DNA from: Planctomycetales bacterium
GTDB taxonomy: Bacteria > Planctomycetota > Planctomycetia > Pirellulales > UBA7805
NCBI GenBank assembly: GCA_011772275.1
Contig: WVZU01000235.1
Location: forward strand, 5,488 to 19,049
Direction of reading: 5' to 3'
Length of the DNA stretch: 13,562 nt
How positions within the stretch are numbered: position 1 is the first letter of the stretch; each line of letters begins with the position of its first letter. Positions 765 through 13,500 of this stretch are shown in pieces. The notes under the pieces were generated by a model. The model made no database searches, had not been told where the DNA came from, and saw nothing but the letters and a program-made list of their open reading frames with translations. The position numbers were made by a program, and so were the translations under genes.

Positions 765-1550
765 ATGGACCAGCCAACCTGGCAGTTACAGATGGGAGAG
801 GGCCCCTTGGTGGCGGCCGCACTCCACGACGGCCACGCGGTTCGTGACGAACTGATCCCGCTGCTGGCGATTGCCGATAGCGAGCGACTCCGCGAAGAAG
901 ACCCTTTCACCGGCCTGTGGACGACGATGGCACCCACCCGCCTTCTCGGACTCCGCTCGCGGTTCGAACTCGATTTGAATCGGCCTCGCGAAAAGGCCGT
1001 CTACCGGACGCCGCAAGATTCGTGGGGGCTACAGGTCTGGAAGGCTCCCCTGCCCGAAAAAGTCGTCAGCCGGTCGCTGGCCGCCTGGGACACCTTCTAC
1101 GACCATGTCCACGCCTTGCTGGCCCGGCTGGTCGAACAGCATCCGCAGGTGGTGGTCTTTGACATTCACAGCTACAACCACCGGCGCGGTGGGCCAGAAG
1201 GCCCGCCAGCCCCGCCTGCCGAAAACCCGGAAGTCAACCTTGGCACCGGCAGCATGGACCGCCAGCGGTGGGCACCGATCGTTGACCGGCTGATCCACGA
1301 ACTGACAAACTATGACTATCAAGGCCGCCACCTGGATGTCCGTGAAAATGTCAAGTTTTTTGGGGGACATTTTCCGACCTGGATTCATCAGACCTTTCCG
1401 CAAAACGTCTGCGCGGTGGCCATCGAATTCAAGAAGTTCTTCATGGATGAATGGACAGGACAACCCGATCGAGATCAGCTGTTCGCCATCGGCCAGGCGC
1501 TGCGGGCAGCGGCGGAGGGTGTCGGGGAGGAATTGCAAGCTGTGGGTTAG
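765..1550 (+). CDS. N-formylglutamate amidohydrolase (FGase) family protein
   Basis: A 261-residue protein, normal for the FGase family (HutG-type N-formylglutamate deformylases and relatives), which are metal-dependent hydrolases related in fold to zinc carboxypeptidases. Visible family marks are LHDGHAVRDE (His21, His24), FELDLNRP (67-74), VVFDIHSY with the Asp133-x-His135-Ser motif, and Glu221 in VAIEFKKFFMDE. ATG 765 is chosen because GGGGGG (755-760) sits 4 nt upstream; a longer frame from 687 would add 26 low-complexity residues that do not look native. No histidine-utilisation genes flank it. Two GshB-like ATP-grasp ligases follow on the same strand, an association also reported for this family outside histidine breakdown. 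The substrate is therefore more likely an acylated amino acid or peptide made by that pathway. Family assignment is firm, substrate open. Confidence 0.88.
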   Translation: MDQPTWQLQMGEGPLVAAALHDGHAVRDELIPLLAIADSERLREEDPFTGLWTTMAPTRLLGLRSRFELDLNRPREKAVYRTPQDSWGLQVWKAPLPEKVVSRSLAAWDTFYDHVHALLARLVEQHPQVVVFDIHSYNHRRGGPEGPPAPPAENPEVNLGTGSMDRQRWAPIVDRLIHELTNYDYQGRHLDVRENVKFFGGHFPTWIHQTFPQNVCAVAIEFKKFFMDEWTGQPDRDQLFAIGQALRAAAEGVGEELQAVG

Positions 1551-1755
1551 AAAGAGGGGAAAGCCCTGCACGATTTGCGACCCATGAACGGAAGTCCTGG
1601 ACGGTCGGTTGCCGGCCGATCCGCCGCGACCGGCCTGCTGAGCGACCTTTTCCTTTCCGCAGCCGGCCCTGGCGACAGTCGCCGCTGCGGGCGGCGAATC
1701 CAGCCGGCGGGGGTGTCCGGTTTCGGCCCCCCGCGGGGGGAGCTGCGGGGTGTAC

Positions 1756-1790
1756 GGCGCCCGCTGGCCAGCCGGGGGCCCGTTTTCTTT
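1756..1790 (+). terminator. Possible intrinsic terminator downstream of FGase gene
   Basis: A GC-rich imperfect dyad (GCCCGCTGG / CCAGCCGGGGGC) is followed at once by CGTTTTCTTT, the only T-rich run in this region. It lies about 205 nt after the FGase stop and 113 nt before the next start. The stem is imperfect and other pairings are possible, so this is tentative. Confidence 0.3.
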
Positions 1791-1889
1791 GCGGGGGGGC
1801 TTGCCGACCAAGCCGCCTCGTGGCCATGGTGATCGTTGGTCCGCGGATTGCGACACAGTGTCAGGTCGCAGCCGCGGGAAGGATGAGCG

Positions 1890-1895
1890 AAGGAG
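1890..1895 (+). promoter_or_regulatory. Ribosome binding site deciding the GTG start at 1903
   Basis: AAGGAG with 7-nt spacing to GTG 1903. This is the clearest Shine-Dalgarno in the window and rules against the longer frame that begins near 1750. Confidence 0.7.
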
Positions 1896-1902
1896 TGGCG
1901 TT

Positions 1903-2952
1903 GTGAAGATTGGTTTTTTGGTCAACGACGTGATGACCGAACAGCCGGGGTACACCACCATGCGGCTGGCCCATGAGGCGCATAGCCGCGGCCACGATAC
2001 GTGGGTGATGGGTGTGGGAGAATTGGCCTACGATCCCGACGACTGTATTCGTGGCCGGGCCCGCGCGGCCCGCCCGGAAAGGCGGTGCAAAACTCCCGAA
2101 TCATATACCGCGGAATTGCAAGGGAACCACGCCGTCCGCCATCGGATTACGGTGGACGACCTGGACGTGCTGATGCTGCGCAACGTCCCTTCAGACGATC
2201 TGCTCAGCCGTCCTTGGGCCGTCACGGCGGCGGCCGAATTCGGGAGGCTGGCCGCTCGACGCGGCGTGATTGTGGTAAACGACCCCAACGGGCTGGCCAA
2301 AGCGTCCAGCAAGATGTATTTCCAATTGTTTCCGGAAGAAGTTCGCCCCCGCACCCTGATCACCCGGGACAACGCCGAGATCAAGGCCTTCGCCCAGGAG
2401 GAGGGTGGCAATATCGTGCTCAAACCGCTGCAAGGCTCGGGCGGTGCGGGTGTCTTCCTGGTCCGGCCGGACGATGTTCCCAACATCAACCAGATGATTG
2501 ACGCGGTCAGCCGGGATGGCTTCGTGATCGCTCAACAGTACCTGCCGGCCGCGGTCGACGGCGACATGCGGCTCTTCGTGATGAATGGGCGGCCGCTGCA
2601 GGCCAAGGGCAAGTACGCCGCCTTTCGGCGTGTGCGTAGCGGGGGGGACATGCGCAGCAACATTCACGCGGGCGGCAAGCTCGCCCCCGCCGAGGTCGAT
2701 GACATGGCACTCAGAATCGCCGAGATTGTCCGGCCCAAGCTGGTCCAGGACGGCATGTTTCTGGTCGGGCTGGACATCGTCGGCGACAAGCTGATGGAGA
2801 TCAATGTCTTCAGCCCGGGCGGCCTGGGCAGCGCGCAACGCTTTACGAAAATCAATTTCAACCGATATGTGATCCACGCCTTGGAACGCAAAGTGAACTA
2901 TATGAATTTTTATGGCCGCAATTTTGACAACGTCGACATGTGCACGTTGTAG
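1903..2952 (+). CDS. GshB/RimK-like ATP-grasp ligase, paralogue 1
   Basis: A 349-residue ATP-grasp ligase resembling glutathione synthetase GshB (about 316 residues in E. coli). The N-terminal GshB-like domain starts MKIGFLVNDV and includes LDVLMLRNVPSDD, the counterpart of GshB's DVILMRKDPP. ATP-binding elements follow: VLKPLQGSGGAGVF (glycine-rich loop), QQYLPAA..GDMRLFVMNG, GGDMRSNIHAGG, and VGLDIVGDKLMEINVFSPGG with the Mg2+-binding Glu/Asn. All expected catalytic residues appear present. The family forms amide bonds through acyl-phosphates using ATP. GTG 1903 is chosen because AAGGAG (1890-1895) is 7 nt upstream and translation then opens exactly at the family N-terminus; the frame stays open further upstream without homologous sequence. 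It differs from GshB in a C-terminal extension ending NFDNVDMCTL. No gamma-glutamylcysteine ligase is nearby, so the true substrates are unknown. Confidence 0.9.
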   Translation: MKIGFLVNDVMTEQPGYTTMRLAHEAHSRGHDTWVMGVGELAYDPDDCIRGRARAARPERRCKTPESYTAELQGNHAVRHRITVDDLDVLMLRNVPSDDLLSRPWAVTAAAEFGRLAARRGVIVVNDPNGLAKASSKMYFQLFPEEVRPRTLITRDNAEIKAFAQEEGGNIVLKPLQGSGGAGVFLVRPDDVPNINQMIDAVSRDGFVIAQQYLPAAVDGDMRLFVMNGRPLQAKGKYAAFRRVRSGGDMRSNIHAGGKLAPAEVDDMALRIAEIVRPKLVQDGMFLVGLDIVGDKLMEINVFSPGGLGSAQRFTKINFNRYVIHALERKVNYMNFYGRNFDNVDMCTL

Positions 2953-2994
2953 CGAACTGTGGCAGGTCTCCGCATTCGGAATACGGGAGAGGAT

Positions 2995-4038
2995 ATGCGG
3001 ATCGGGTTTATCGTCAACGACGTCAAGACGGAAGAGGGCAAGTTCACAACCAGCCGTCTGGGACAGGCCGCCGTCAATCGTGGGCACGAAGTCTGGGTCC
3101 TCGGCGTGGGAGACCTGGCATACGATCCCGATGACATGGTTCGCGCCCGGGCGACGTCGGTTCCCAAAGAGCGTTACGGCAGCAGCGATTCCTACACAAT
3201 GGACTTGCAAGGCAAGCGGGCGGTGCAGCGGCGGATCACCTTGGATGAACTGGACGTGCTGATGTTGCGCAACGTCCCCTCCGACGATTACTTAAAGCGT
3301 CCCTGGGCCTCGACGGCGGCCACCGAGTTCGCCCGCGTCGCCATGCGGCACGGCGTCATCGTGCTCAACGATCCCAACGGCCTGGCCAAAGCCTCCAGCA
3401 AGATGTACTTCCAGCTTTTTCCCGAAGAGGTCCGGCCGCGGACCCTGATCACGCGGTCCCGCGACGAGATCAAGGCATTTGCACAGGAAACGGGGACCAT
3501 CGTGATCAAGCCGCTGCAAGGTTCGGGCGGTGCGGGCGTGTTTTTAGTCCGCCCCTCCGACATCCCCAACCTCAACCAGATGATCGACGCGGTCAGCCGC
3601 GACGGATTCGTGATCGCTCAGGAATATCTCCCGGCTGCCGAACAGGGCGACCTGCGACTGTTTGTCATGAACGGCCGTCCTTTGAGGGTCGGTCGAAAAT
3701 ACGCTGCCTTCCGTCGCGTCCGCAGCGGCGGCGACCTCCGCAGCAACATCCACGCCGGTGGGACGAAAGCGGCCGCCGAAGTCGATTCCAAGATCCTCCA
3801 CATCGCGGAAGTGGTGCGTCCCAAACTGGTCCAGGACGGTATGTTCCTGGTGGGACTCGACATTGTCGGCGACAAACTGATGGAAATAAACGTCTTCAGC
3901 CCCGGCGGACTCGGCAGTGCTCAACTGTTCGAAAAAGTCAACTTCGCCGCCACGGTGATTGAATCGATCGAGCGGAAAGTTCAGTACATGCAGTATTACG
4001 GACGAAATTTTGACAACGTCGACATGTGTACCTTGTAA
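2995..4038 (+). CDS. GshB/RimK-like ATP-grasp ligase, paralogue 2
   Basis: A 347-residue tandem paralogue of the preceding gene, about 75% identical by hand alignment (262 of 349 positions, one gap in the variable N-terminal part and one near the ATP loop). It keeps the same ATP-grasp elements: VIKPLQGSGGAGVF, QEYLPAA..GDLRLFVMNG, GGDLRSNIHAGG and VGLDIVGDKLMEINVFSPGG. ATG 2995 is preceded by GGGAGAGG (2985-2992), and the protein then opens MRIGFIVNDV like its twin. The 42-bp gap implies cotranscription. Differences concentrate in the N-terminal domain (about residues 11-75) and just before the tail, whereas the ATP-binding core is nearly fixed. This fits two ligases acting on different acceptors, or a heteromer. 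Both end in the same 13 residues, YGRNFDNVDMCTL. The family is certain, the reaction unknown. Confidence 0.9.
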   Translation: MRIGFIVNDVKTEEGKFTTSRLGQAAVNRGHEVWVLGVGDLAYDPDDMVRARATSVPKERYGSSDSYTMDLQGKRAVQRRITLDELDVLMLRNVPSDDYLKRPWASTAATEFARVAMRHGVIVLNDPNGLAKASSKMYFQLFPEEVRPRTLITRSRDEIKAFAQETGTIVIKPLQGSGGAGVFLVRPSDIPNLNQMIDAVSRDGFVIAQEYLPAAEQGDLRLFVMNGRPLRVGRKYAAFRRVRSGGDLRSNIHAGGTKAAAEVDSKILHIAEVVRPKLVQDGMFLVGLDIVGDKLMEINVFSPGGLGSAQLFEKVNFAATVIESIERKVQYMQYYGRNFDNVDMCTL

Positions 4039-4143: not shown

Positions 4144-5436
4144 ATGCTGAAAACACGCCAGAAACTCGGCAAGTATCAGATCGAGCGGAAGTTGGGGGAA
4201 GGCGGCTTTGCCCTGGTCTACCAGGCCCGCGATACCATAGAAGGGGTGCGGGTCGCCCTGAAAATACCCTATCCGCACCTGGTGACGCCGGACACCCTGG
4301 AGGATTTTCGCCACGAGGTCCGCGTTGCCGCGCGGTTGGAGCATCCTCATATTTTGCCGCTGAAGAATGCCGAATTTATCAATGGCCATTTCGTCATCAC
4401 CACGGCGCTCGGACAAGGTACGCTCGCCGACCGCCTCCAAAAACGATTGTCGTTTGCCACGGCACTCGACTTTGCCGAACAGATGCTGGCTGCAGTGGCG
4501 TATGCCCACGAAAACCGCATCATCCATTGCGACATCAAGCCAGACAATTTTCTGCTCTTCCCCGGCAACCGCCTCCGCCTGACCGATTTTGGCATCGCAC
4601 GCGTGGCGCAAAAGACGATCAAGGCTTCCGGCGAAGGGACGGTGGGCTACATCGCGCCGGAACAGGCCATGGGCAAGCCCTCCTTCGCTTCGGACGTCTT
4701 CAGCCTGGGGCTGATTCTGTATCGCATGTTTTCCGGCCAGCTACCGGACTGGCCTTACGACTGGCCTCCCGTCGGTTACGATCGTCTCCGCCGCCGCCTG
4801 CACCCCGAGATGCTGGGGGTGGTCCGCAAAGCCGTACAGGTCGACGTCCGTCGTCGCTACCGCAACGCGGGCCAGATGCTGGCCGCCTTCGGCCGAGCCA
4901 AACCGCGCGCCATCCGGTTTGCGGCCAGCCGATACGGGCAAGCGAAGCCCAAAACGACGCGCCGCGACTGGCAGGCGATCCGGCGCCAGGAATTTGTGCG
5001 TCAGTTCGGAAAACTTCTGGAGGCCCGCTTCGCCTGCTCGGCATGCCAGGGTCCCGTCTCCGAACCAATGACCTGCTGTCCCTGGTGCGGGAAGGCTCGA
5101 CGGAAACACGACGCCGAAACGCGATTCCCCATCCACTGCCCCCGCTGCCACCGCGGGATGAAACTCGATTGGCGCTACTGTGCCTGGTGCTATGGCCCCG
5201 GTTTTGAAGTCCAAGGCAATCGCGCCTATTCCGACGTCCGCTACACCGCTCGCTGTGAAAACGAACGTTGCGAGCGAAAAAAGCTGATGCCTTTCATGCG
5301 ATACTGTCCCTGGTGCCATACGCGCGTCCGCCGCACTTGGAACATTACAGGCTCGCAAGAAAAGTGCGCCCGCTGCGACTGGGGAGTCCTGCGGGCCTTC
5401 TGGAGCTACTGTCCGTGGTGCAGCAAGAAACTCTGA
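4144..5436 (+). CDS. Ser/Thr protein kinase with four C-terminal zinc-ribbon units
   Basis: A 430-residue protein with two parts. Residues 10 to about 255 form a Hanks-type kinase: glycine loop LGEGGFALV (18-26), VALK with Lys40, helix-C Glu58, catalytic loop HCDIKPDN (Asp130), DFG at 148-150, GTVGYIAPE (165-173) and SDVFSLG. The Arg of the usual HRD motif is Cys, so this is a non-RD kinase not expected to depend on classic activation-loop phosphorylation. Residues 298-426 carry eight Cys pairs (298/301, 312/315, 332/335, 346/349, 371/376, 388/391, 408/411, 423/426), that is, four four-Cys zinc ribbons whose second knuckle reads YCPWC, YCAWC or CCPWC. No transmembrane helix or extracellular sensor is seen, so it should be cytosolic, with the ribbons binding protein or nucleic acid. 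The ATP-grasp gene ends 105 bp upstream; mgtE begins 19 bp downstream. Kinase and ribbon calls are firm, the target is unknown. Confidence 0.9.
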   Translation: MLKTRQKLGKYQIERKLGEGGFALVYQARDTIEGVRVALKIPYPHLVTPDTLEDFRHEVRVAARLEHPHILPLKNAEFINGHFVITTALGQGTLADRLQKRLSFATALDFAEQMLAAVAYAHENRIIHCDIKPDNFLLFPGNRLRLTDFGIARVAQKTIKASGEGTVGYIAPEQAMGKPSFASDVFSLGLILYRMFSGQLPDWPYDWPPVGYDRLRRRLHPEMLGVVRKAVQVDVRRRYRNAGQMLAAFGRAKPRAIRFAASRYGQAKPKTTRRDWQAIRRQEFVRQFGKLLEARFACSACQGPVSEPMTCCPWCGKARRKHDAETRFPIHCPRCHRGMKLDWRYCAWCYGPGFEVQGNRAYSDVRYTARCENERCERKKLMPFMRYCPWCHTRVRRTWNITGSQEKCARCDWGVLRAFWSYCPWCSKKL

Positions 5437-5455: not shown

Positions 5456-6823
5456 GTGATGGAAGAGCGTGATCAGCAGGAACCGTGGGACCAGCTTCGC
5501 CGCCTGGTGCAACAACACGACGCACAAGAACTTGCCGGCTTTCTGGAAGAACTCTCGCCGGGAGAAGCCGTCCGTGCCGTACTCCGCCTGGACCCGGCCC
5601 ATCAGACGCAGCTCCTCTTGACCCTGGCCCCCCAGGACGCTGCAGAACTCATCGAAGAGATGCCCCATGCCGAGGCGGCGGGGCTGGTGGAACACTTGCC
5701 TGCCGAAACCGCGGCCGCCATCGTACAGCAATTGCCCAGCGCCGAACAAGCGGATCTGGTCGGCGAACTGCCGATGTCCGAAGCGGACGCGATCCTCGCA
5801 AACATGGAAGTTCCCCAAGCGAACCAGTTGCGTTCGCTGGCCAGTTATCACAACGATGTGGCCGGCGGCATCATGGTCACGGAATTGCTCTCTTATCCCA
5901 GCGAATTCACCGTCGACGACGTGATTGGGGACCTGCGGGCCAACGCCGACCGATATGCCCGGTTCAACGTGCAGTACGTCTTTGTGACCACGAACGGCCA
6001 ACGCCTGGTGGGCGTACTGCGGCTCCGCGATCTGCTCCTTTCGCCCCGCAACGTCATGGTCAAGCAGATCATGCAGCAGGATTTGTTATCGTTTCCTGAC
6101 GACGCCACCTTGGACGAACTGCGCGAGTTTTTTGACAGCCACAATTATTTTGGCGTGCCGATCACCGATCGCCGAGGGTGCCTGCTGGGCGTCGTGCACC
6201 GCTCGGCCGTCGAAGAAGCACTCGGACAAAGGGCCGAAAGTGACTACCGCCGCTCGCAAGGTATTCTCTACGAGGAACTCCGCAGCATGCCCGCCCTCGT
6301 CCGCTCGCGAAGGCGGCTCGGCTGGCTGACCGTCAACATCCTCCTGAACGTTGTCGCGGCCAGCGTGATCGCGTTTTTTCAGGACACCCTGGCCCAGGTT
6401 ATCGCGTTGGCGGTATTCTTGCCGATCATCTCCGATATGAGCGGTTGCACGGGCAACCAGGCGGTGGCCGTCAGCATGCGCGAACTGGCACTGGGTGTTG
6501 TCAAACCGTTCGAACTGGCGCATGTCTGGCTGAAGGAGATCACCGTCGGCATCCTCAATGGACTGGCACTGGGCCTTTTGATCGCAACCGTCGCCGTGCT
6601 CTGGAAAGGAAACCCTTACCTGGGATTGGTCATCGGCACGGCCATGGCCACCAACACCATAATCGCCGTGTCGCTGGGAGGACTCTTGCCGCTGGCAATG
6701 AAACGCATGGGCATCGATCCGGCCCTGGCCGCAGGACCTGTCCTCACCACGATTACCGACATGTGCGGCTTTTTCCTGGTGCTGGGCATCGCCACGCTGA
6801 TGCTGCCCTTTTTGGTCCCCTAG
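5456..6823 (+). CDS. mgtE: MgtE-type magnesium transporter
   Basis: A 455-residue protein, matching the usual length of about 450 for this Mg2+-gated channel. Residues 1 to about 135 are the MgtE N-terminal superhelix with repeated xxLPxxE/A turns (EEMP, EHLP, QQLP, GELP). Residues about 136-255 are paired CBS domains (GGIMVTEL, LVGVLRLRDLLL, VKQIMQQDL, LLGVVHRSAVEEAL). Residues 285-455 hold five transmembrane helices, with GCTGNQAVAVSMRELALG and DPALAAGPVLTTITDMCG. Asp435 in TTITD corresponds to the pore Asp that selects Mg2+ in the Thermus protein. GTG 5456 and ATG 5459 are adjacent in-frame starts; GGAG at 5444-5447 is 8 nt from the GTG and 11 from the ATG, so the start is uncertain by one codon. 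It follows the kinase gene by 19 bp and is probably cotranscribed. MgtE is normally gated by cytosolic Mg2+ through its N and CBS domains. Confidence 0.95.
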   Translation: MMEERDQQEPWDQLRRLVQQHDAQELAGFLEELSPGEAVRAVLRLDPAHQTQLLLTLAPQDAAELIEEMPHAEAAGLVEHLPAETAAAIVQQLPSAEQADLVGELPMSEADAILANMEVPQANQLRSLASYHNDVAGGIMVTELLSYPSEFTVDDVIGDLRANADRYARFNVQYVFVTTNGQRLVGVLRLRDLLLSPRNVMVKQIMQQDLLSFPDDATLDELREFFDSHNYFGVPITDRRGCLLGVVHRSAVEEALGQRAESDYRRSQGILYEELRSMPALVRSRRRLGWLTVNILLNVVAASVIAFFQDTLAQVIALAVFLPIISDMSGCTGNQAVAVSMRELALGVVKPFELAHVWLKEITVGILNGLALGLLIATVAVLWKGNPYLGLVIGTAMATNTIIAVSLGGLLPLAMKRMGIDPALAAGPVLTTITDMCGFFLVLGIATLMLPFLVP

Positions 6824-7313: not shown

Positions 7314-9671
7314 TCAGGCAGCCTTGCCGACCTGGGAACCACCCTGCTGCGGCGCAGGTGCTTCCGGTGCTAGGACGCGAACTTCCAGCGGCCGCACGGC
7401 ATCCAGGTGAATATCGCGTTGAGGAAAGGCAATCACGATTCCGGCCTCGCGGAACAGTTCGTCAATCTTAAAGCGAACCAGCGACTCAATCGTCATCCGC
7501 CGGGTCAAGGATGTCATTTGAACCCAGAAGTTAAGCTGGAATTGAAGAGAGTTGTCACCGAATTCCCGGAACCATACGAACGGGGACGGATCGACCAGGA
7601 CCATTTCCTGCAACTTCGCCGCTCGAATCATCAGCTCCTCGACTTGCTTTGTCGGGGACCCGTACGCCACGCCTGCCATGACTTCGCAACGGACCATGGT
7701 GTCGGAGAGCGTCCAGTTGGTGACATTGTTCTCCAGAAACTTGCTGTTGGGAACGATAATTTCCAGGTTGGCGCCGGTCTTGACCCGCGTGCTGCGGGCA
7801 CCAATCGTTTCCACCGTTGCGAAAAGGCCATCCACCTGGATAAGGTCCCCCACCCGAATCGGACGTTCAGCCAGCAGGATCAAGCCCGAGATAAAATTGT
7901 TCACCACATTCTGACTGCCAAAGCCGACACCCAGGGCCACCGCACCACCCAGCAGCGTGAAGGCGGTCAGCGGCACGTTGACGATTTTTAAAGCAAATAC
8001 GGCAAACAGGATCAGCAGAGAGTAGAACAATACCGTTTGCAAGGCCGAGGCGGCGCTGGGATTGACCCCCACCCGCGGCAGGAATCGATTGCCGAACAGG
8101 CGGCTGATCACGCGCGAAAGCAGATAGCCGACGAACAACAGCACGACACCCATCACGATCTTCCTGACCGTGATCGGACGATCGTCAATCGACGCCAGTT
8201 CGTGGTTCCAGGCTTGAACGATCGCCTCGTAGGCTTGCTTGCCGCGATCCGACCAGGTTGTTGCCGGCTCGCTATCGCGCAACTCGGCCAACAGCTTGTC
8301 GTGCAGCCGCCGGCTCGCATCGATACTTGCAATCTGTCGTTCGTGCAGCATCGACAATTGGCTCAACGTCGTCTGCTGCGCACGCAGCCAGCGTGTCGTG
8401 CCGTCAAGACGCTGCGAATCGCTGTCAAGCTTCGCTTCCAGCGTTGCCAGGTCCTGGCGGACTTCGTCCACGCGAATGGTCTGCAAACGCCGTTCGCGAT
8501 CCAACTGCTCAAGCTGCTGTATGGTTTCTTCAACCCACAGCCGCCGATCTTCTCTGCTTACGCTGTGCTGCGATATCCGGAAACGACGATTCCAGCCTTC
8601 CCGCCGATCTTCCAGCCTGGCAAGTTGCTGGCCCAGCGCCGCGATGCGTTGTTGTTGAGCGAGCCGGGCCAGTCGGCGGGCCTCGACCTCTTCCAGCAGA
8701 TCTGCGGGACGCTCAAAGGCCTGGTCCAGCCGGCCGCGCGCGTCGAACCACTGCTGGTCCAGAAATTGAGCTGTTTTTTCCGCCGCCTGCAGGCTCTGTT
8801 TCAAATCCCGCTCCTGCCGCTCCAGCTCGACTAACTGATGCTCCAAGTCCTCCACCCGGAAGTGCGTCTGCCTGCCAACCCACTCGATTTTCTCTGCCAG
8901 ATAAGCAAGTTGAAGCTCGTGGGATTGTTGAGCCCGTTTTTCGACTGCCAGTTCGATTTCCCGCGTCTTCAATATTTCGCCGGCGAGGCGGGTCTCCAGT
9001 TCGGCGTGAGCGAGCGCGGCGGACAGCTGCGGGTTCCGCTCTTCATCCTTGTTCGTATCGAATGTCTCTTTCGCCTTGCGGCGCTGGCGCTCCTTTTCGG
9101 CAAGCGCGGCCTTGGCCAGGCGCACAGCTTCTGCCGTCGTGTCGACCGTCGCCTGCACCGCACCTTGACGGGCTGTCTCCGCCACCAGCTCGTCCCGCAA
9201 CTGGTCCAGCAACAGGAAGGAATAGGGCGTCGGGTCCTCGGGCCCACGAGCCCGCAGGTCCTGCAACCGCTGCTCCAGCTCAACTTTCTGCTTCTCGGCA
9301 GCCTCCCTCCGCTCCTCGGCCGCTTGCTGCTGGGCCAATAACACCTCCAACTGCTTGAGGTTGCCCACCTCGCGAGTCAGATTCTCCGTCAGCTCACCAC
9401 CCCGACTGTCCGCCTCTGCCTCCTGGCTCTCTTTGACAGCATCCAGCTGGCGCTGCGCAACGCGAAGCCGCTGAGAAATTTCCTGCCGCTGCTGTTTCAG
9501 GCCTGCGGGAGAATCCGCCGTTGGGGACACGGAAGGTTCTGCAGGCGACGCGTCAGGCAATACCGGCAGGGATAGCTGGCCAGAGCAAATAGAGGCCTGA
9601 GTTGCCGCCAGCAGGAAAATCACCAGGCAGACAACGACCCCCACGGGCAACTTGGAGATAATCTTTTTCAC
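7314..9671 (-). CDS. MscK/MscM-like mechanosensitive channel with periplasmic coiled coil
   Basis: A protein of about 785 residues. A Lys-rich N-terminus (KKIISK) and a hydrophobic core up to AATQA form a signal peptide. Roughly residues 60-470 are a long charged Gln/Glu/Arg/Leu-rich coiled coil, predicted periplasmic. Two transmembrane helices follow (GVVLLFVGYLLS and VLFYSLLILFAVFAL), then the MscS pore helix LLGGAVALGVGFGSQNVVNNFISG and the cytosolic beta and alpha/beta parts (RPIRVGDLIQVDG, NLEIIVPNSKFLENNVTNWT). The architecture is that of MscK/MscM-type channels but shorter than E. coli's roughly 1100 residues, with fewer helices before the pore. Such channels release osmolytes under hypo-osmotic shock. 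The start is unresolved: GTG at 9671 gives the neatest signal peptide, and TTG at 9680 or 9683 is also in frame; none has a clear ribosome binding site and an in-frame stop lies at 9699-9701. Stop is TGA at 7314-7316. An 850-bp gap separates it from the upstream RND gene. Confidence 0.88.
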   Translation of the reverse strand: MKKIISKLPVGVVVCLVIFLLAATQASICSGQLSLPVLPDASPAEPSVSPTADSPAGLKQQRQEISQRLRVAQRQLDAVKESQEAEADSRGGELTENLTREVGNLKQLEVLLAQQQAAEERREAAEKQKVELEQRLQDLRARGPEDPTPYSFLLLDQLRDELVAETARQGAVQATVDTTAEAVRLAKAALAEKERQRRKAKETFDTNKDEERNPQLSAALAHAELETRLAGEILKTREIELAVEKRAQQSHELQLAYLAEKIEWVGRQTHFRVEDLEHQLVELERQERDLKQSLQAAEKTAQFLDQQWFDARGRLDQAFERPADLLEEVEARRLARLAQQQRIAALGQQLARLEDRREGWNRRFRISQHSVSREDRRLWVEETIQQLEQLDRERRLQTIRVDEVRQDLATLEAKLDSDSQRLDGTTRWLRAQQTTLSQLSMLHERQIASIDASRRLHDKLLAELRDSEPATTWSDRGKQAYEAIVQAWNHELASIDDRPITVRKIVMGVVLLFVGYLLSRVISRLFGNRFLPRVGVNPSAASALQTVLFYSLLILFAVFALKIVNVPLTAFTLLGGAVALGVGFGSQNVVNNFISGLILLAERPIRVGDLIQVDGLFATVETIGARSTRVKTGANLEIIVPNSKFLENNVTNWTLSDTMVRCEVMAGVAYGSPTKQVEELMIRAAKLQEMVLVDPSPFVWFREFGDNSLQFQLNFWVQMTSLTRRMTIESLVRFKIDELFREAGIVIAFPQRDIHLDAVRPLEVRVLAPEAPAPQQGGSQVGKAA

Positions 9672-9891
9672 TTTGGACAACAAACAGGATGAGGGTGTTC
9701 AACCAGACCACCGGGCGGAACCTTCACAACCTGGTCTGCCAAAAAGCAGATCCCATCCGCCCACAGACGCTCAACAACAGCGCCGCGCGATCATAGGAAC
9801 CGCGTGGCACCAGAGCAACGGCGCTTTGGCCGTCCCCACGGACGTCCCGTGGCGAACCCCCATACCGTTTCATCAAGAACCGGTCTGGTCG

Positions 9892-10520: not shown

Positions 10521-13500
10521 TTATTTTCTGCCGGCAACTTCCGGCCAGGCCGGCCGGTTCGACGCGGCCTGCGTGCCGGCCGTGCTGCCGCGGGCCGCGA
10601 CCAGCGGCGTGGTGACGGGACCCGCCGCAACCTGGCCCCCCAACGCAACCCGACCGGTCATCAGCAGGTTGAACAACGTGGGGACCAACACCAGGGTAAA
10701 CACCGTCGAAACGACCAGGCCACCCAGCACCACACTGCCCAGCCCACGGTACAGTTCGCTGCCTGCACCGGGAAACAATACCAGCGGCAAGAGCCCCAAC
10801 ACCGTGGTGATTGTCGTCATAAAAATGGGGCGAATCCGAGTGCGGACGCTGTTCAGAATCGCCTCGTCAATCGGCATCTGGTGGTCGCGGATGTACTGCA
10901 GCGAATGGTGCACGATCAAGATCGGATTGTTCACTACCGTGCCGATCAGGATCACAAAGCCCAGCATGGTTAGCACATCCAACGGCTGGAGCACGAAGAG
11001 GTTCAACAGATTCAACCCCAGGATGCCGCCCACCGCGCCCAGCGGCACGCTGAAGATAATTACCAGCGGGTACAACCACGATTCGAAGAGAGCGGCCATC
11101 AGCAAATAGGTGATTAACAGGGCGAGGATCACATTGAACCGCAAAGCCAGCCAGGTATCCCGTAGCTTGTCCGCGGTACCGGCCAGCCGAATGCGGTAGC
11201 CGGCGCCCAGCTGGCCCTCCTCCTGCAGCGGCTGGACGATTTGCCTGGCAATCTGGTCCATGGCGTCTTCCAAAGCGATCTGCGGCGGGGGCGACACCTC
11301 CACCGTAATCGCCCGCTCACGCTCGCGGTGATTCACCTGTTCCGGACCGCTGCTCAAGTCGACGTGGGCCAAGGCACCCAACGGAACCAGCTGACCCTCA
11401 GGGGTCGCCACCGGCAGAGCAGCGACTTCCTGGGTGCGATCGGCATAACGGGCTTCACCCACAATCATCAGGTCGATCTTGTCACCACCCACGTAATAGT
11501 CCCCAGCATAGGCGCCATCGATCAACGCGTCGGCCGCATACCCCAAGTCGGCACTGCTCACCCCCATCTCAGCTGCCTGGATCAGCTTGGGCCGGATGTG
11601 CACTTCGGGCGTGGAAAGGTCCAAGCTGGGGATCGGACGGGCCTGGGCGGCAGGCATCAACTCTTTGACCTGACCCAGGACACGGCCACCCAGGGCGACC
11701 AGCCGGCTGAGCTGGGGACCGGTAATCTCGATGTCAATCGTGCGACCCGCCGCCAGACCCTGTTCAAACAAGCTCGACTGCTTGGCCACCCCAAACGTGC
11801 CCGGGATACGGGAGGCGGCCTGGCGGACCAGCGGTACCAAGTCGGCCACTCGCGAGGGGTCCTTTGCCCGCAATCCCAAGAAGACCTGCCGGCCACGGGC
11901 GACGAAAAAGAAATCCCCGATTACCGGAAAATCCAAGTTCGCGGCCTGGGTGCTGTACGGATCGACATCCCAATACGGTCGAAGTTCGGCTTCCACCGTC
12001 CGACCCAGCTGCATCAGTTGATCCAGGTTGTAACCCGGGGGCGGCAAAAGAATGCCGAACACAAGGTTGCGGTTACCCGTCGGCAGGTACTCGACCTTGG
12101 GCCAGAACAGCCAGCTCAGCCCAATCGCCAGGCCGACCAGGCCGACAACTACGACCAGCTGGCGTACGATACGTTGTTGAATCCAGGCGTTGGTCCCCAC
12201 GACCAGATCGACGAATCGCTGACCCGCCAGCTCGACCGACCGGGCCAGGCCCACCGCCCAGCGGCGTAAGGTCCGAGATCCGGCAGCCGGCCCGCCGGCC
12301 TGGCCGCGGGATACCAGCCAGCCGGGCGGTCGGCCTGGCCCATGATGGCCGGAAAACAGTCTCGCCGCCGCCGTGGGAATCACGCTCATCGAAACAATCA
12401 GCGACAACGTCACCGCCCCACTGATGGCCAGGGCAATGTCCCGAAACAGTTGTCCCGCCTCTTCCTGGACGAAGACCACCGGCAGAAAAACTGCCACGGT
12501 GGTCAGCGTCGAGGCCAGCACGGCACCGGCCACCTCCTGGCTGCCACGGACAGCCGCTGTAAACGGCTGCTCACCCATCCCGCAGCGGCGATGGATGTTC
12601 TCCAGTACCACCACCGCATTGTCCACCAACATGCCCACGGCGAACGCCAGTCCGGCCAGGCTGATCACGTTCAGCGAGCGGCCCAGCAGGCCCAGGATCA
12701 GAAAGGTCCCGATAATCGAAATCGGGATGGCCAGCCCCACGACCAGAGCACCGCGGGCGAACCAGAAGCCGATCAGCACCAGGACGACCAGGCAGACGGC
12801 TGCGAACCAGGGCGAGACGAGTGCTGCCAGCAGGGCGGTGGCCAGAATGATCGGGATGGAAAACAGGGTCCGCGCGTTCAAATGCAGGAACAGCATCAAG
12901 ACGACAACCGTCAGCGCTCCGCCCACAAAAATGTTCTGGCGAACCAGGTCCATGGACGAATAGATATACTCGGTCTCGTCGTAAACCTGCAGCAGCTGCA
13001 AGCCCCGCTCTTTGAGGATGCCTTCGTCCAGCTCGCGCCGCGCCTGCCGCAGGCCGGCCATCACGTCCAGCACGTTGGCGCCGGTTTCGCGTTGAGCGTT
13101 GATGGCGATGGCGGATTCACCGAAGCGGCGGACCAGGCCGTCCGGTTTCTTGTAGTCCAGACGCACCACAGCCACGTCGCGGACGTAGACCGGACTGCCG
13201 CCACGGACCGCCAGCAACTGGTTTTCCACCTGCTGCGGGCTGCGAAATTGGCCCAGTGTCCGCACGACCCACCGTCGCTTGCCCTCCCAAAAATCGCCGG
13301 CCGAAGTGTCTTCGTTCTGGCCGCGCAATACGCGACGCACGTCGGCGATCGTCAACTGCCGCGCGGCAAGTTTTTCCGGATCGACCACGACCTGCAATTC
13401 GTCCTCCAGGCCGCCAATCACGTTGGATTGCGAGATACCCGGCACCCGCTCAAAGCGGGCTTCGATCACGTCCTCGGCAAACCGCCGTAATTTGGTCACG

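Follow-up and report, generated by a model that had tools for sequence, protein, structure and literature searches.

What do an FGase-family amidohydrolase gene and two paralogous glutathione synthetase-like (GshB-like) ligase genes do together in a stretch of planctomycete DNA? The stretch, called the window here, is 13,562 nt long and covers bases 5488-19049 of contig C47 in an assembly of 3.3 Mb, 437 contigs and 84.6% completeness; short masked (N) stretches lie on C47 just beyond both of its ends. By kinship and closest relatives, the genome falls among planctomycetes in the same order as Pirellulimonas nuda. The original prediction placed an FGase gene ahead of two GshB-like ATP-grasp genes 42 bp apart on the same strand, and both the sequence and Pfam and NCBIfam scans bear this out. 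The three genes form a dispersed copy of an operon that is conserved among planctomycetes, and the window holds three parts of a four-part system, the fourth being a carboxypeptidase of the MATCAP family (PF08014, formerly DUF1704). The reading we favor, with a probability of about 45%, is a make-and-trim system whose product is an amino-acid or peptide amide and which is tied to ionic or osmotic homeostasis.

The FGase-family gene (765-1550, plus strand, ATG start) encodes 261 amino acids that match PF05013 at 76 bits (cut-off 28.9) and keep every residue invariant across an alignment of 27 family members. The protein scores 27.5 bits against the 278.75 required by the HutG N-formylglutamate deformylase model TIGR02017, and a sequence search of the PDB with it returned no chain at E ≤ 1. 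Ligase 1 (1903-2952, plus strand), whose GTG start is preceded by AAGGAG, follows after 352 bp, and ligase 2 (2995-4038, plus strand) begins with ATG. Both are GshB/RimK-like ATP-grasp proteins, 75% identical to each other, with PF02955 scores of 169.6 and 173.8 bits respectively, and at 449.9 and 446.7 bits both pass the cut-off of 408 for the "glutathione synthetase" subfamily NF009110/PRK12458. Ligase 1 belongs to clade B and ligase 2 to clade C; these labels, together with clade A and the MATCAP types a and b, are a reading of FastTree trees and not formally tested clades.

A MATCAP profile gave no match in any frame of the window, as had been predicted, and the side-by-side DUF1704-FGase-ATP-grasp arrangement is missing there. 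This absence is only local, because the same genome carries a PF08014 match of 309.8-312 bits (cut-off 27) elsewhere, on contig C248; the protein also passes TIGR02421 (343.9 against 338.65 bits) and has both HEIGTH (HExxTH) and QEGLA motifs. The suggestion that the window holds a reduced form of a cluster already known is therefore supported. At L003 (G000:C248, 6221-8197 and 8212-8850) this MATCAP gene, of type b, adjoins phosphotransferase system (PTS) enzyme I-like and PAD_porph genes, and the convergent end of an AstE/aspartoacylase-like gene, a weak match, lies at the edge of that contig. Candidate MATCAP remnants were unconvincing, both in the window's 352-bp gap (one match at E 0.07) and in the gaps of locus L016 (short matches at E 0.003 or weaker, where two parts of the model fell on the same bases).

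A contig scan of genomes with an alignment of eight ligases produced 37 loci, from which core profiles were then built, with MATCAP counted at 100 bits or more. MATCAP was local in 28 of the 37 loci, FGase in 26, both in 22 and either hydrolase in 32, and 92 of 93 adjacent core pairs shared a strand, the gap between neighbors having a median of 40 bp. The linkage is thus conserved among relatives, usually with MATCAP included, which supports the make-and-trim arrangement of the original prediction. The commonest minimal layout was FGase-MATCAP-ligase, and the fullest, FGase-MATCAP-ligase-ligase-MATCAP-ligase, had three ligases and two MATCAPs; the FGase-ligase-ligase layout of the window was found again in three loci (L015, L016 and L033). 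The nine loci without a local MATCAP come from eight genomes, every one of which has a PF08014 match (partial and at a contig end in G167), and four of the seven genomes searched for an FGase missing from the locus carry it elsewhere. Some loci share one genome (L015/L038, L022/L033, L019/L037 and L025/L041/L043). Among 119 genomes of the phylum, four have a ligase above the NF009110 cut-off (ten at a looser E of 1e-30), the same four have an FGase of this type, and MATCAP occurs in 20, including those four. In 40 closer relatives the ligase was found in four (three above the cut-off), all of them within the seven having MATCAP.

Ligase genes in pieces were seen at L027 (9629-10129; clade A, Bythopirellula) and L053 (2935-3486; the single ligase of G151). 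Similar operons in metagenome-assembled genomes labeled Sumerlaeota, Desulfobacterales, Gemmatimonadota and Kiritimatiellae (L030, L035, L039 and L042) may reflect transfer or misbinning. Apparent ligase-FGase-ligase and ligase-MATCAP-ligase fusions at L036 turned out to be long overlapping frames. No paper on this operon was found in the literature searched, which was limited to open-licence papers and is weak evidence of absence.

The MATCAP proteins begin with an FGase-like domain that lacks the invariant residues of FGase. A natural fusion of MATCAP with an intact-looking FGase exists at L065 (G036:C566, 5889-7910, minus strand), next to a ligase without the conserved tail described below and with a sigma-54 activator nearby. 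A variant cluster at L059 (G065:C516, 2-4202) consists of an ATP-grasp gene, a short MATCAP, a hydrolase that is AstE-like (a name read from sequence) and takes the place of FGase, and a GshB-like ligase, and is also adjoined by a sigma-54 activator.

The paralogues of the two enzymes keep company. All 10 genomes with MATCAP-b have ligase C, and 10 of the 13 with ligase C have MATCAP-b (L007, L014 and L016 being without it). Of the 16 genomes with ligase A, 15 also have MATCAP-a and the remaining one (L041) has an unclassified fragment; MATCAP-a occurs without ligase A at L008, L028 and L031. The genome of the window has ligases B and C with MATCAP-b, and so retains one ligase-MATCAP pair; neither ligase A nor MATCAP-a was found in this incomplete assembly. 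The co-occurrence therefore suggests that ligase and carboxypeptidase form dedicated pairs.

Downstream of the operon, on the plus strand, are a Ser/Thr protein kinase gene with a zinc-ribbon-like C-terminal part (4144-5436; PF00069, 133.5 bits) and an MgtE magnesium transporter gene (5456-6823; TIGR00400, 264.7 bits, cut-off 232.75), followed on the minus strand by an MscK/MscS-type mechanosensitive channel gene (7314-9683; PF00924, 77 bits). MgtE lies 1418 bp and the channel gene 3336 bp downstream. These surroundings, the kinase and cation transporters, recur at the loci of relatives, as do sigma-54 activators, a pattern that the original prediction overlooked. The kinase follows the operon at 109 bp in the window, and close relatives of it follow at 118 bp in L016 and 293 bp in L051, the only three strong cases of this link. 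PP2C-type phosphatase genes, named from one member, stand beside the operon in four loci (for example in the flanks of L033 and L007), and a phosphatase of this type is a possible partner of the kinase found at other loci. The end of an MMPL/RND exporter gene (3-512, upstream) and a large RND-type pump gene (10521-13499, minus strand) showed no operon link.

Neighbors were counted at 44 loci (the 37 plus L002, L051, L052, L053, L056, L059 and L065) within 3 kb beside the core (near, 220 kb) and in the other flanks (far, 274 kb). The near and far counts were 9 and 1 for CNNM/CorC, 5 and 0 for CorA, and 2 and 0 for MgtE. Pooled, 16 of 17 divalent-cation transporters were near (p 2e-5), or 14 of 15 with one genus counted once (p 1e-4). 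Three unrelated transporter families in the same position argue for a functional connection, and the MgtE of the window fits this pattern. Sigma-54 activators were near in 11 cases and far in none (p 1e-4), and a mechanosensitive channel lay within 5 kb in 9 of the 44 loci. Sites that agree with the sigma-54 consensus at 10 or more of 12 positions preceded 9 of 39 operons, where 0.53 were expected from shuffles and 0.67 from the whole-locus rate; the opposite strand gave 0 of 39, and the two downstream counts were 1 and 1 of 41. A weak -24/-12 look-alike in the window, 50 bp before ligase 1 (1837-1852, plus strand), has 9 of 12 matches (p 0.13) and is not claimed as a site.

Under the make-and-trim reading, the ligases would couple an amino acid to a carboxylate acceptor at the expense of ATP, as expected of the GshB/RimK branch of the ATP-grasp family. 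Glutamate would be the best guess for the added residue, because RimK and the MptN/MyfB relatives use it. For MptN/MyfB this is described in PMC8141765. The two-domain MATCAP may then remove the added residue from the C-terminal side, by analogy with the human enzymes, and FGase may act on the same compound by cleaving an N-acyl or related amide. The whole would probably be switched by the sigma-54 activator and the Ser/Thr kinase and would probably serve ionic or osmotic homeostasis. The parts, linkage, co-occurrence, paralogue pairs, domain relations and recurrent neighbors are read from sequence, and a number of points weigh against the interpretation built on them. Substrate and product are not demonstrated, and neither the gamma-glutamyl product of the original prediction nor a metabolite in preference to a protein tag gained support. 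An FGase of this type was not found in three of the seven genomes searched for a missing one. For mechanosensitive channels there is no excess close to the core (5 of 9 loci near, p 0.37; 5 of 10 copies). The neighbor p-values are optimistic, since the families were picked for recurring, and some loci in these statistics share one genome or genus. A strong sigma-54 site and an adjacent activator coincide in L007 only, and the genes of the window have no sigma-54 activator near them and no significant site.

An alternative that we consider unlikely is a cycle of protein C-terminal tagging like tubulin tyrosination or glutamylation, in which the ligase writes, MATCAP erases, and the target is perhaps the ligases' own tails. 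Beyond the GshB fold, as judged from alignment, the ligases have in common a C-terminal tail of fixed length; it ends in NVDMCTL in both ligase 1 (2902-2949, plus strand) and ligase 2 (3991-4035, plus strand). Leucine directly precedes the stop codon in 63 of 63 locus ligases of at least 300 amino acids and ends 222 of 240 homologues among the matches listed, the remainder ending mostly in Met or Ile, a constancy that would suit a tagged terminus. The next closest enzyme, RimK, attaches glutamate at the C terminus of a protein, as cited in PMC8141765. Enzymes of the eukaryotic MATCAP family, the human ones included, trim protein C termini and remove polyglutamate (PMC10499314). Among 1355 small open reading frames within 1.5 kb of core genes, no family reached more than four loci and the larger groups came mostly from one genus; no conserved small precursor was thus seen, which speaks for tagging and against a ribosomal precursor peptide. 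In the predicted model of ligase 2 the GshB alignment stops at residue 330. Against tagging, the last block has a predicted local distance difference test score (pLDDT) of 89, so that the tail is predicted to be ordered and may therefore be structural. The more distant ligases of G036 and G065 lack the tail and have the same partners, no target protein is known, and the FGase step is left unexplained. A bolder version, which we hold to be rather improbable, is a bacterial writer-eraser system related to the tubulin code. Here the ligases would place an amino acid on a C-terminal carboxylate, perhaps that of their own tails, MATCAP would take it off again, its dead FGase-like domain serving as sensor or for docking, and FGase would complete the cycle, all under sigma-54 and tuning cation transporters or osmotic state.

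Very doubtful is a role in which MptN/MyfB-like ligases polyglutamylate a methylofuran- or pterin-type coenzyme and the hydrolases trim the chain. MyfB provides a precedent (PMC8141765), and the MptN model does match the ligases; the scores, however, are far under its cut-off, no one-carbon gene was recognized among the recurrent neighbors, and the cation-transporter context is unexplained.

It is also very improbable that the two enzymes are ordinary glutathione synthetases and that FGase and MATCAP are incidental. Escherichia coli GshB is their best relative in fold and sequence, databases label their relatives "glutathione synthetase", and PF04107 (GCS2) proteins occur in 8 of the 13 genomes with the system. 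GCS2 also includes ligases other than GshA. Ligases 1 and 2 nevertheless miss both GshB equivalog cut-offs (NF003573, 207.5 and 216.1 against 272 bits; TIGR01380, 197.1 and 200.9 against 299.05). PF04262 is absent from all 13 genomes and PF04107 from five, and neither glutamate-cysteine ligase family was found in the genome of the window (84.6% complete) or in the closed single-contig genome of Pirellulimonas nuda, which has the operon; PF08886 was not searched. Nor would one expect such close linkage with two hydrolases, or as many as three paralogues of the ligase. Because of the missed cut-offs and the PF04262 and PF04107 results, glutathione is unlikely as the product, one of the two options in the original prediction, and the "glutathione synthetase" names are probably wrong.

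That the linkage is old and the window copy decaying, with MATCAP-a and ligase A gone and MATCAP-b moved, has little chance: the F-GB-GC order, the MATCAP-b on another contig, the lack of any detected MATCAP-a or ligase A, and the broken ligases of L027 and L053 speak for it, whereas none of the three genes is truncated and their proteins keep the conserved residues, MATCAP-b retains its two motifs, the same layout occurs in three other loci, and the assembly is incomplete.

The make-and-trim reading unites a bacterial MATCAP, related to the enzymes that trim tubulin in humans, with its likely partner ligases in one compact system, and suggests ions, osmotic stress and sigma-54 as the physiological setting of the product. 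The system occurs in cultured planctomycetes such as P. nuda and Stieleria, and the role of bacterial DUF1704 is therefore directly testable.

The neighborhood of DUF1704 (QEGLA/MATCAP), FGase and GshB-like ATP-grasp genes has been described before, the likely source being Iyer et al. (2009). The core three-family association is thus already known, and the same families are tightly linked in the relatives examined here; new here are the MATCAP domain derived from FGase, the pairing of paralogues, the ligase tail and the genomic surroundings. Our system differs in that MATCAP is displaced in the genome of the window, relatives have up to three ligases and two MATCAPs, the MATCAP N-terminal domain is a degenerate FGase-like one, and cation-transporter and sigma-54 genes surround the operon. 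In contrast to bacterial GshB, the ligases fall short of the equivalog models and have an extra conserved C-terminal tail, gshA is often absent, and their RSNxHAGG-type loop is nearer to that of RimK. At 67.1 and 75.3 bits they are far under the RimK cut-off (TIGR00768, 143.4), and at 61-74 bits far under that of MptN (350). Compared with the eukaryotic MATCAP/TMCP tubulin carboxypeptidases, the bacterial MATCAP has an extra, FGase-like N-terminal domain.
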